Positions 12,692 to 17,137 of a stretch of 64,000 nt of DNA are shown piece by piece. Position numbers and translations under genes: made by a program. Within the stretch, counting starts at the first letter, position 1, and each line of letters begins with the position of its first letter. The stretch is from Janthinobacterium saanense (GTDB lineage Bacteria > Pseudomonadota > Gammaproteobacteria > Burkholderiales > Burkholderiaceae_D), in assembly GCF_014200675.1 (NCBI RefSeq), contig NZ_JACHCI010000018.1, forward strand, positions 1 through 64,000, given 5' to 3'. The notes beneath the pieces are model-generated. The model saw only the letters and a list, made by a program, of their open reading frames with translations. It was not told the origin of the DNA and searched no databases.

Positions 12692-12749
12692 GCCAATGGG
12701 TGGCGATTCCGAGAAACTAAGCCAATGGGTGGCGATTCCGAGAAACTAA
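12692..12749. repeat. 29-bp perfect tandem duplication
   Basis: Two identical 29-base copies lie head to tail (12692-12720 and 12721-12749). Each contains GCCAATGGGTGGCGATTCC and ends in GAGAAACTAA. On the other strand the core reads GGAATCGCCACCCATTGGC, which resembles the repeated terminal sequences of IS21-family elements. The IS21 link is a weak recollection, not a match. Confidence 0.7.
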
Positions 12750-12840: not shown

Positions 12841-13008
12841 TTAATCCAGCATCCAAGCACGTACTTCAGGTGCTCTAGCGCCATATTGCCGTCCAGTAGC
12901 ATTCCACCAAGTAACAGCATCTTCCTTATGCGCCATGAAATAAAAAAGGAAGTCATTACCATCAGGCAAAGACTTCCTTTTAAGAACTAGACAAAAATTT
13001 GTCAAACT
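12841..13008 (-). pseudogene. C-terminal fragment of an unknown AT-rich gene
   Basis: On the minus strand a frame is open from 13008 to the TAA at 12841-12843. It ends in a protein-like stretch containing AVTWWNATGRQYGARAPEV and the terminus RAWMLD. The first ATG in frame is at 12936, giving only 31 residues, with no good ribosome site. The amino-acid composition looks real and the base composition is foreign to the surroundings. I read it as the tail of a transferred gene whose 5' part is lost. I do not recognise the family. Confidence 0.35.
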
Positions 13009-13054
13009 TTATTTGATTTGTCAGATTTTATTTAATTTGTCAGATTCTATTTTT
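12998..13054. repeat. Three 19-bp degenerate tandem repeats downstream of sodB
   Basis: Copies at 12998-13016, 13017-13035 and 13036-13054 all begin TTTGTCA and continue with a T-rich half (for example TTTGTCAGATTTTATTTAA). They lie in the 3' region of sodB. They could be remnants of a mobile element, a protein-binding array, or part of the sodB mRNA tail. Confidence 0.7.
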
Positions 13055-13821: not shown

Positions 13822-15183
13822 TCAGTCCAGTGTGGCTTGCACAGTGGCAATGCCGATCTGCGCGCTGCCTTCAGCCAGCCTTACCTCGAGGTTTTGCCTG
13901 GCTTTTAATTGGGCGGGCGAGCGCAGAATCACGCCTTTTTCATCGCGCACGATGGCGTAGCCGCGTGCCAAAGTGCGCTGCGGGTTCAGCAGTTCCAGCT
14001 GTGACGTCAGCGCTGCCAGGCTGTGGCGCCGCTGCAGCAAGCCTTGCATGATTGCCGCGCCGCTGCGGCGCTGGGTCTCGTGCAGGCGTGCGCGCAGCAA
14101 GCTCACTTCCGGGCGCTGCACCGCCCAGCGGTCGCGCAAGCGTTCCAGCGCATGGCGCGACTGGTTCAAGGGCGCGCGCGTGGCATGCGTCATGGCGGTC
14201 GACAGGGCCAGCAGCTTCAGGCGCTGCTGGCCGATTTGCGCGGCCGGGTTGAGCAGGCGGCGGCTGTGGCGGTCCAGCGTCTGCGCCGCATCGTCGAGGC
14301 TGCGGCGCATGGCGCGGCGTAAATCGCTCGCATCGGCACGCAGGGAATTCATCCAGTCGGCGCGTGGCGTGACGGCCAGTTCGGCTGCCGCCGTCGGCGT
14401 GGCGGCGCGCAAGTCGGCGGCGAAATCGGCGATGGTGAAATCGGTTTCATGGCCCACGCCGCTAATTACCGGCATGTAACAATCGGCAATCGCGTGCGCC
14501 ACCTCTTCATCGTTGAAGGACCACAGGTCTTCGATGCTGCCGCCGCCACGGCAGACCAGCAGCACGTCGCACTCGGCGCGGCGCGACGCCGTGCGGATCG
14601 CCTGGGCTATTTTTTCCGGCGCCTGCTGGCCCTGCACGGGAGTGGGATACAAGATGATGGACACGTGCGGCGCGCGGCGCTGCAAGGCTGTCAGCACGTC
14701 GCGCAAGGCTGCCGCCTGCGGGCTGGTGACGATGCCGACCGTGCGCGCAAACAGCGGGAGGGCGCGCTTGCGTTCCGGGTCGAACAGCCCCTGCGCGGCC
14801 AGTTTTTCCTTCAGGCGCAAGTATGCTTCATACAGGGCGCCCACGCCGGCGCGGCGGATGGCTTCCACATTGATCTGATAATCGCCACGCGCACCGTACA
14901 GGGTGACCAGGGCGCGCACTTCCACTTTATCGCCTTCGCGCGGCGTGAAGCCGGCAAATTGCGCGCGACCGCGGAACATCACGGCGCGCACCTGGGCCGC
15001 GTCATCCTTCAAGGTGAAATACCAGTGGCCGGAACTGGCGCGCGTAAAGTTGGAAATCTCGCCGGCGATCCAGGTCAGGGGAAACGAGCGCTCGAGCAGG
15101 CGCGCCACGGCCTGGTTCAGTGCGCTGACGGTCAGCACGGGCGGGGCGGCATAGCCGCTGTCGGTCGGGTTATCAGTCATCAT
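13822..15183 (-). CDS. xseA: Exodeoxyribonuclease VII large subunit
   Basis: About 453 residues. The N-terminal OB-fold ([28 protein letters not shown]) is followed by the catalytic core with [32 protein letters not shown] and [17 protein letters not shown]-type segments, then long coiled-coil helices. With the small subunit XseB (not in the window) it degrades single-stranded DNA. Starts at 15183, 15180 and 15225 are all in frame and none has a convincing ribosome site; I prefer 15183 or 15180 because family homology begins just after. Its 5' side faces the DnaA-box array. Confidence 0.93.
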
Positions 15184-15336
15184 CAAGGGCAATTCTGGAA
15201 TGGGAAGGGCAGCAACTGTCCACATATTTTCAGCGAGGTCATGCTTATGTCATATATCGTGCAAAACAACAAGTTCTATTTCTAAGTAATTGATTTCATG
15301 GTGAATTCATTCTTGCCTGATTTGCGTGCATAGTGA

Positions 15337-16371
15337 AAAAAGCCTTTAGGATCAAGCACATCAGTCATGCCGTCCACACTTACGCACAAAGTTATCCACA
15401 GAAAATGTGCGGAACTTTGTGCGCGCGATGGAGGGGCCTGGCCTGTGTGTCTGAGCATCAGAAAACTGCCTTGCTGCATTTTTACGCACGGAAATAAAGT
15501 CATTGTAAATCAAGGGCTTGGTATGCCATGCATGGCCTTGCACACAATCTTATCCACAAAAAATGTGCAGAACTTGTGCGCTGGCGGTATTTTATCCGGC
15601 GAGTGCCTCCGCTGCCTGCCTCTGATTGGCGTGCCCTTTTTTTATGCAAGAGGTAAATACTGATATAAATCAAAGACTTGTGATTATTTCTTGGTATTGC
15701 ACACAATCTTATCCACAGAATATGTGCAAAACTGGCTAAATCGTTTTAGTGCTAGCGCGGTTTTTCCGCGCGGTTTTCTGTTTCTTGCTCGCCTCTCTGT
15801 CTGCCTTATTTTTAATCAATGTAAAAAAGTCGTTTAAAATCAAGGATCTTGCATGGAGTCGAGCCGCTTGCTCACAATCTTATCCACACTTTATGTGTGG
15901 AACTGCCATGGCGGTGGAAAAGTCGCCGGCCGCATGCCGATTAAGCGCTGTTTTCTGTGCTGCAGGGGCGCGGATGACGGTCTGCCTTATTTTTATGCAG
16001 TCAGATAAAAACGATATAAATCAATGTACTTAGCGTGTATCCGTGCGCTTGCGCACAATCTTGTCCACAGATTATGTGCAGAACTTGTGCCTTGGCCATC
16101 GCCGCTGATCAGTGTAGCCTGCCACTTTTTTAAACAATGAAAACAAGTCCTTTATAATCAATGGCTTACTTTCATTCAACCGCCTTGCACACAATCTTGT
16201 CCACAGTAAATGTGCAAAACTTTCAAAGTCTTGTCTTTGCAACATTGACTAATGGCGCTCAGCTGCTATGCCTGTATTTTGCACAGTAGCATAATCCACA
16301 ATAAAATCAATGACTTAGTGTTTATCCTTGGCGCTTGCGCACAATCTTATCCACACAATATGTGCAAAACC
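15337..16371. promoter_or_regulatory. Seven-module IHF-site / DnaA-box array with inverted arms
   Basis: The 1.35-kb gene-free interval between xseA and exbB contains repeated cassettes. DnaA boxes TTATCCACA lie at 15392, 15550, 15709, 15880 and 16347 (first base); one-mismatch TTGTCCACA at 16061 and 16198; an orphan TAATCCACA at 16292. IHF-consensus sites (WATCAANNNNTTR) lie at 15508, 15668, 16157 and 16305. Versions with one extra spacer base are at 15838 and 16019, and a degenerate copy at 15350. Each IHF site begins 41 or 42 bases before its DnaA box. Boxes are enclosed by inverted arms (TGCACA/TGTGCA and variants), and most share CACAATCTTATCCACA. The right arm itself reads, on the other strand, as a weaker DnaA box. 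AT-rich runs precede each IHF site. No protein-like frame explains the region. Confidence 0.8.
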
Positions 16372-16531
16372 GGAGCAAAAGAGCAGCTGTGCATAAGCGC
16401 TTGCCACAAGCGCCACTTGCCGCCGGCGCTGCAACGCGCTACATTGCGCCATTCTGCTGCTGGTCATGACAATATGGCCGGTGGGTACAATAGGGCAGCT
16501 GTCCTTGCCAAACAAAAACCAGGAGTTTCAT

Positions 16532-17137
16532 TTGCTCGCTATATTCCAAGCCGCCGGCTGGCCCATCTGGCTGTTGTTGATCGCTTCCATCGTGGCCCTG
16601 GCCCTGATCATCGAACGCCTGCTGTATTTGCGGCGCAGTAAGGTCTTGCCGCGCAAACTGTTCGACGAAGTGGTGCAGGTGTATCGCGGCGGCAAGATCA
16701 CGCCCGATACCATCAGCAAGCTGGAAGGCAATTCGCCGCTGGGCGTGGTACTGGCCGCCGCGCTGCGCAATGTGCACGCGCCACGCGAGGTCATGAAGGA
16801 ATCGATAGAAGAAGCGGGCAGCGGCGTGGCCCACGTGCTGGAACGTTTTTTGACGACCCTGGGCACGATCGCCACCCTGGCGCCGCTGATGGGCCTGTTT
16901 GGCACGGTGGTCGGCATGATCGAAATCTTCGGTTCGCAAAACGCCAGCGGTTCGAACCCGGCGCAATTGGCGCACGGCATTTCGGTGGCCCTGTATAACA
17001 CGGGCTTTGGCCTGGCGATTGCCATGCCGACCCTGGTGTTTTACCGCCATTTCCGCGCCCTGGTCGACAGCTTCGTGATCGACATGGAGCAGCAAGCCGT
17101 CAAATTCGTCGATATCGTCCACAGTGGCCGCCAATGA
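16532..17137 (+). CDS. exbB: MotA/TolQ/ExbB proton channel family protein
   Basis: A 201-residue inner-membrane proton-channel subunit. Helices lie at about residues 8-30, 105-130 and 150-175. The conserved MotA/TolQ/ExbB core includes ERFLTTLGTIATLAPLMGLF with the GTV-GMI segment and the later GFGLAIAMP helix. The start is a TTG at 16532, chosen because AGGAG lies six to ten bases upstream and homology begins there; an in-frame ATG 66 bases earlier would add a non-conserved stretch. The stop overlaps exbD by four bases. With ExbD it should energise TonB-dependent import or a Tol-like function. Confidence 0.9.
   Translation: MLAIFQAAGWPIWLLLIASIVALALIIERLLYLRRSKVLPRKLFDEVVQVYRGGKITPDTISKLEGNSPLGVVLAAALRNVHAPREVMKESIEEAGSGVAHVLERFLTTLGTIATLAPLMGLFGTVVGMIEIFGSQNASGSNPAQLAHGISVALYNTGFGLAIAMPTLVFYRHFRALVDSFVIDMEQQAVKFVDIVHSGRQ

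Follow-up and report, generated by a model that had tools for sequence, protein, structure and literature searches.

DnaA-reactivating sequences (DARS), which turn ADP-DnaA into ATP-DnaA, are described in the literature consulted from Escherichia coli and related species as loci with one core each; the conservation of DARS2 is put at E. coli-proximal beta- or gamma-proteobacteria (PMC5742627) or at gamma-proteobacteria related to E. coli (PMC4245941). In DARS1 and DARS2 alike, DnaA box I is oriented opposite to boxes II and III at equal spacing, and this opposite orientation has been linked to head-to-head DnaA contact (PMC5742627); tandem boxes separated by 2-3 bp are targeted by E. coli DnaA in general (PMC11317965). 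Here we analyse 64,000 nucleotides from Janthinobacterium saanense (hereafter the window: positions 1 to 64,000 of contig NZ_JACHCI010000018.1, assembly GCF_014200675.1), in which seven strong DnaA boxes (TTRTCCACA), all on the plus strand, fill about 1 kb between the divergent genes xseA and exbB. We propose, at a probability of roughly 0.6, that this intergenic region is a DARS-type locus amplified to seven tandem modules; it would be a DARS by its architecture, with reactivation itself a prediction. No description of the array was found in the literature searched, which covered the available text of CC-licensed PMC papers.

The strong boxes start at 15392, 15550, 15709, 15880, 16061, 16197 and 16347; five read TTATCCACA and two, those of cassettes 5 and 6, read TTGTCCACA. 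Only 0.64 such boxes are expected in the window, and none of 100 shuffles reached seven. Every strong box forms the centre of a core of three boxes, TTnnnCACA-3 bp-TTRTCCACA-5 bp-TGTGnnnAA on the plus strand with the third box inverted, which on the minus strand reads box I-5 bp-box II-3 bp-box III, I being opposite to II and III. This pattern has seven exact matches in the window, all taken as minus-strand cores (15380..15414, with boxes III, II at 15392-15400, and I; 15538..15572; 15697..15731; 15868..15902; 16049..16083; 16185..16219; and 16335..16369), and none in 100 shuffles; allowing two mismatches revealed no core in the window beyond the seven. The first-pass annotation of this DNA had recognized seven cassettes, each with one DnaA box and an integration host factor (IHF)-like site 41-42 bp before it, together with an orphan box TAATCCACA at 16292 (16292..16300, plus strand). 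All of these are present in the sequence; the two further boxes of every cassette, at gaps of 3 and 5 bp, had been overlooked.

When the DARS1 and DARS2 regions of E. coli MG1655 were scanned directly for boxes, the box order, orientation and gaps of both cores were identical to those of the array cores. As a specificity control we used 11 double-box strings from a table of 16 ChIP (chromatin immunoprecipitation) regions, leaving out rpoH and rne (PMC11317965). A box I with one mismatch at gap 5 occurred only at DARS1 and DARS2 among these 11 sites, the remaining nine showing 3-7 mismatches at the inverted gap-5 position.

The cassettes also share motifs on the box III side of the core. Perfect IHF-consensus sites (WATCAANNNNTTR, plus strand) in cassettes 2, 3, 6 and 7 (15508..15520, 15668..15680, 16156..16168 and 16305..16317) start at -42, -41, -41 and -42 relative to their strong boxes; IHF-like sites with one extra spacer base stand at -42 of boxes 15880 and 16061 (15838..15851 and 16019..16032, plus strand), and a degenerate one (GATCAA..., 15350..15362, plus strand) at -42 of box 15392. 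The four perfect, two extended and one degenerate sites are as first annotated. A perfect IHF match on the minus strand (AATCAATTACTTA, 15283..15295), 109 bp upstream of strong box 1 and possibly the ancestral IHF site, had been overlooked and lies outside the interval then marked. A conserved G-N13-C element around an A/T-rich centre had likewise been missed. This weak, Fis-like 15-mer, a candidate Fis site on the plus strand, lies at -77 in five of the seven cassettes (15315..15329, 15473..15487, 15803..15817, 15984..15998 and 16270..16284) and at -76 in cassettes 3 and 6 (15633..15647 and 16121..16135, read from the sequence).

In E. coli DARS2, an IHF match with one mismatch at -99 has the same side and strand sense as the site at -109 of the array and lies about one helical turn closer, and another match at -83, separated by 3 bp from that at -99, agrees with IBS1-2 as described in PMC4245941. 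No IHF motif within one mismatch was found at DARS1 between -250 and +120. Full activity of DARS1 requires sequence flanking its last box (PMC4585315), and this flank is possibly the side on which the IHF sites of the array lie.

The array is conserved at the same place in related genera. A DNA search of 41 genomes gave matches in 27, including 24 of 25 from the same genus (own genome included), and the strong boxes follow one another at 158, 149, 160, 170, 136 and 150 bp in 15 of 24 loci compared; the spacings in the window (158, 159, 171, 181, 136 and 150 bp) differ in three intervals by 10-11 bp, about one turn. A box consensus was drawn from 156 of 168 boxes after filtering for an upstream CACAA, and the invariance of those letters is therefore by construction. 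A stricter pattern was present in 346 of the 392 genomes of the family sample and 42 of 44 genera, and 29 of 40 same-genus genomes (own included) carried seven matches, one of which in G015 is on the opposite strand. We take the family, order and class of the collection, following GTDB, to be one including Oxalobacteraceae, Burkholderiales (beta-proteobacteria) and Gammaproteobacteria, respectively; individual places in the family survey, the order survey and the box scan of genome G004 are those among the matches listed.

Loci were also chosen by XseA, and their selection was therefore independent of the boxes. From the best 80 of 179 named loci (Janthinobacterium, Duganella, Rugamonas, Massilia, Pseudoduganella, Telluria and Oxalobacteraceae), the 76 with divergent XseA and ExbB were used, excluding L197, L206, L211 and L226, which had no ExbB hit. 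At least three co-oriented boxes were present in 75 of the 76 intergenic regions (unfiltered count), with 433 boxes on the plus strand, 10 on the minus strand and 0 to 9 strong boxes per locus. An upstream TTnnnCACA lay at gap 3 for 351 of the 433 boxes and at no other gap from 0 to 15, and the inverted box lay at gap 5 in 370, at gap 3 in 10 and at gap 15 in 2. Within -110..+59 the exact IHF consensus on the plus strand occurred only at -42 (156 boxes) and -41 (15), the best match between -44 and -38 having no mismatch at 171 boxes and one at 117. The G-N3-(A/T-rich)-N3-C element, a poor match to the Fis consensus, stood at -77 for 290 boxes (next offset, 26), and an IHF site within one mismatch near -109 was found in 42 of 76 loci, in every case at the first box (0-4 of 76 loci in control offset windows). 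Cassettes and phasing are thus kept in relatives and not peculiar to one strain. Phase analysis of module spacings gave a best period of 10.7-10.8 (distinct-value test, P = 0.012, R = 0.20; R = 0.43 over 319 spacings, which are non-independent), modestly supporting helical phasing between modules. Three loci (L200, L223 and L240) have xseA-exbB gaps of 3.5-4.7 kb, and in L240 3.9 kb separates two boxes; perhaps DNA has been inserted within or beside their arrays.

In its own genome (G000; 6.10 Mb, 48 contigs) the array gives one BLAST match and the core pattern is confined to these seven places, so the possibility of a generic repeat scattered through the genome was rejected. Two variant cores exist outside the array. 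One, at C8:151753-151787 (L011:4754-4788), is of DARS type, its box II reading TTATCAACA, and has a perfect minus-strand IHF site at -109; the genes on either side we take to be hemE and priA. Its counterpart by box pattern in G004 lies at 107 kb, about 256 kb away from the probable oriC. The other, at C14:94721-94840 (L012), is a single element of the same form, with a minus-strand IHF site at -109 and a core, between what are presumably a response-regulator-like and a chromate-transporter-like gene.

Single cores of this kind extend well beyond the family. Of 399 genomes from the order, 288 (in 123 of 159 genera) contain a loose core pattern, and the reversed control has none among the matches listed. 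A search of 50 genomes in which each gap was free to take any value from 0 to 12 gave 76 matches, 63 of them with the gaps (3,5), and four of six (1,5) matches were second readings of a (3,5) place. Neighbours were checked for 30 loci, the first among the order-survey matches listed: 23 adjoin xseA (own included), one lies at hemE-priA and six have no assignable neighbour. Outside the own family 17 of 22 adjoin xseA, as single cores from four families, and 13 of these 17 carry a minus-strand IHF site (0-1 mismatch) at -108 to -111. Four helical turns between IHF site and box as the key feature of the array was therefore rejected as not universal, since in these four families the IHF site lies at another distance and on the other strand. 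Among 50 family loci, some of which are one place twice and 20 of which were hand-picked among the matches listed, partly as clusters, 16 are at xseA-exbB, 32 at hemE-priA and two, for which no neighbour could be assigned, at neither.

A class-wide search combined the core with an IHF half-motif only (TTGANW) at free spacing. It matched 104 of 274 genomes across the class, the reversed control matching none. Among the 140 places listed, where L288 is entered twice and 27 offsets were allowed, the implied IHF site lies at -109 to -113 in 114, at -97 to -103 in 14 and elsewhere in 12; the Fis-like 15-mer, sought in 30 class-wide loci, was mostly at -78 (17; next offset, 2). We infer that a core with an IHF site at about -110 is an ancestral DARS2-like element, and that the Janthinobacterium array may have arisen by its tandem amplification, modules 2-7 using a closer IHF site.

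The position on the chromosome is conserved as well. In G004, dnaA lies at 0.4 kb and the array at 1.84 Mb. The turning point of the cumulative GC skew, as sampled, falls near 350-360 kb, next to a cluster of boxes at 363 kb; 20-kb samples at 1.675 and 1.99 Mb were both positive, in a noisy skew with one negative sample at 2.305 Mb. The dnaA gene is not at the origin. The relative of the box cluster in G000 (C1:5500-6640; L009:5500-6640) comprises three repeated units of paired DnaA boxes with TAG-type repeats, presumably DnaA-trio-like, and is the probable oriC; the gene beside it we take to encode an Mtn-like nucleosidase. Relatives of this cluster lie 342-374 kb from dnaA in six genomes. 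The TAG patterns tried gave four occurrences at the probable origin and none in the array. In seven genomes the array is intergenic, between oriC and terminus, and 1.31-1.48 Mb from the probable oriC, whose placement rests on skew in G004 only and on similarity in the other genomes; G011, with a contig of only roughly known length, carries the array on the other arm, about 1.2 Mb away. A further dense group of perfect and degenerate DnaA boxes lies at C17:8229-8668 of G000 (L010:5150-5700), and its G004 counterpart by box pattern, at 349 kb, lies about 14 kb away from the probable oriC.

The protein partners are encoded in the same genome. The DnaA of G000 is identical to that of E. coli at 245 of 451 aligned residues and keeps K178, D269, R281, R285, L290, R334 and D433-T436, residues whose roles we in part presume; IhfA, IhfB and Hda were found above the cut-offs and an HU-like protein below.

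The flanking genes, which we take from their protein sequences to be xseA (13822..15225, minus strand) and exbB (MotA/TolQ/ExbB-type; 16466..17137, plus strand), were read as open reading frames (ORFs); the real start of exbB is probably the TTG at 16532, which is preceded by AGGAG. The closest named relative of the own XseA is that of Janthinobacterium sp. K2E3 (94% identity). The GC content of the array is 44.8%, against 60.1% for the whole window. A coding repeat was rejected as an explanation, since just mechanical ORFs of 94-129 amino acids reach into the array and Tandem Repeats Finder calls no repeat within it. Elsewhere in the window are short tandem repeats at 12692-12749 (29 bp x 2, copies identical) and 12996-13052 (19 bp x 3), near a presumably SodB-like gene.

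Several observations weigh against the DARS-type reading. DnaA uses the 3-bp tandem pair as a layout in general, so the inverted box I is the only part of the core that speaks for DARS; this box is an exact TTWTNCACA in three of seven cassettes (TTTTGCACA); the other four boxes I, and box III (mostly TTGCNCACA), deviate from it and are weaker. The IHF sites of cassettes 2-7, at -41/-42, are on the other strand, unlike those of DARS2 (-99/-83), and the Fis-like site is weak. In the XseA-chosen loci, 82 of 433 boxes lack the upstream box, 51-63 lack the gap-5 inverted box and at 145 even the best IHF match has 2-3 mismatches; seven full cores occur in only 12 of 76 loci, and L183 (a metagenome-assembled genome labelled Janthinobacterium) has a 577-bp xseA-exbB gap with zero boxes, a case seen in 1 of the 76. 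Within the genus, the exact pattern is absent from 2 of the 40 genomes and has one to six matches in 9. The reversed control of the free-gap search gave three matches, and DnaA residue E21 is Q in G000.

The main alternative interpretation is a datA-like inactivation, in which an IHF bend between neighbouring strong boxes unites ATP-DnaA oligomers and stimulates ATP hydrolysis. It is the main rival because the strong boxes start about 160 bp apart (136-181 bp) with an IHF-like site in each interval, much as two datA boxes, which we take to be boxes 2 and 3, start 162 bp apart around a perfect IHF site; a 3-bp tandem pair is also present in datA. An inverted box is missing, however, 5 bp from the datA double box (4 mismatches), and the other inverted pair of datA has a 3-bp gap, whereas all seven window cassettes and most boxes of relatives have the gap-5 inverted box. 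The array is also more than a megabase from the probable oriC, whereas datA is near oriC (PMC5742627). We favour DARS on the strength of the inverted box I and of how far the array lies from the origin, and regard datA-like inactivation as unlikely.

Less likely still is passive titration, by which up to 21 DnaA-binding sites would take up DnaA with its nucleotide state unchanged. The density of sites in the array is high and titration by the chromosome has been reported for E. coli (PMC12371093), but titration requires neither the fixed gaps of 3 and 5 bp nor a fixed IHF offset, both of which are conserved, and genomes with only one or two cores offer few sites. The first-pass annotation had left titration and control of DnaA-ATP side by side. 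Its proposal that a conserved neighbourhood houses a DnaA/IHF control locus of the datA/DARS class is supported, and reactivation is favoured over titration because the core has DARS geometry.

Transcription control, with DnaA and IHF regulating exbB-exbD-lpxK-kdsB or xseA, would suit an array between divergent genes in a conserved neighbourhood. We nevertheless consider it improbable: in L244 and L245 the core persists between XseA and LpxK although no ExbB or ExbD was detected there, and like elements with IHF at -109 stand at hemE-priA and at an unrelated locus of the same genome. The earlier suggestion of an origin-like element was rejected, and a replication origin or its remnant is scarcely credible despite the A/T-richness and many DnaA boxes of the array, as the sampled skew of G004 turns near 350-360 kb with no switch seen at the array, and TAG-type repeats are missing from it though present at the probable origin cluster.

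If the region is a DARS-type locus, each core would take up ADP-DnaA at its three boxes, stable binding coming from the 3-bp tandem pair (III-II) and the 5-bp inverted pair (I-II) setting two DnaA AAA+ domains head-to-head, so that ADP is loosened and apo-DnaA could depart and reload with ATP. IHF would bend the DNA and activate the module from its site at -41/-42 in most modules and from that at -109 in module 1, a possible Fis site near -77 may assist, and spacing changes of about one helical turn would keep the modules in phase. Because the modules lie mid-replichore, their dosage would double some time after initiation, supplying more ATP-DnaA for the next round. These steps build on the established core geometry and orientation, IHF motifs, conservation, chromosome position and genes for DnaA, IhfA, IhfB and Hda; the binding of DnaA, IHF and Fis, the release of ADP, the timing role and any cooperation between modules are predicted from them.

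More tentatively, and rather doubtfully as a whole, the array could be one cooperative machine, with seven in-register DARS modules folded by IHF (perhaps Fis) bends and recharging ADP-DnaA in bulk and in a switch-like manner as the main initiation timer; it would have been amplified from an ancestral core with IHF at about -110 that is widespread in beta- and gamma-proteobacteria and unrecognised outside close relatives of E. coli. If the DARS-type reading holds, the array of seven and the widespread single-core element would make a mechanism local to E. coli a general one, and Janthinobacterium would have an unusually large control panel for the timing of DNA replication. The natural range of 0 to 9 strong boxes per locus is a ready experiment on DARS dosage and initiation timing, and the fixed gaps yield exact predictions for mutation.

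The closest described system is DARS2, upstream of mutH, which shares with the array the three-box core I-5-II-3-III, an intergenic place between oriC and terminus, and, at the level of motifs, IHF sites on the box III side in the order core, IHF, then Fis-like. Unlike the array, with its seven cores, DARS2 has one; the flanking genes differ, the IHF sites are at -99/-83 rather than at -41/-42 with module 1 also at -109, and the Fis site of the array is a weak motif. DARS1 (bioD-uvrB) agrees in core geometry and in its place between oriC and terminus, but is a single core. In common with datA, the array has the 3-bp tandem pair and strong boxes that start about 160 bp from one another and enclose an IHF-like site; it differs in its inverted box at 5 bp, in its tandem arrangement and in not being near oriC. 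The clusters of several DnaA boxes outside oriC in Bacillus subtilis and Streptomyces coelicolor, said to repress untimely initiation (PMC5742627, PMC4585315), resemble the array by description but, unlike it, lie near oriC (PMC4585315).
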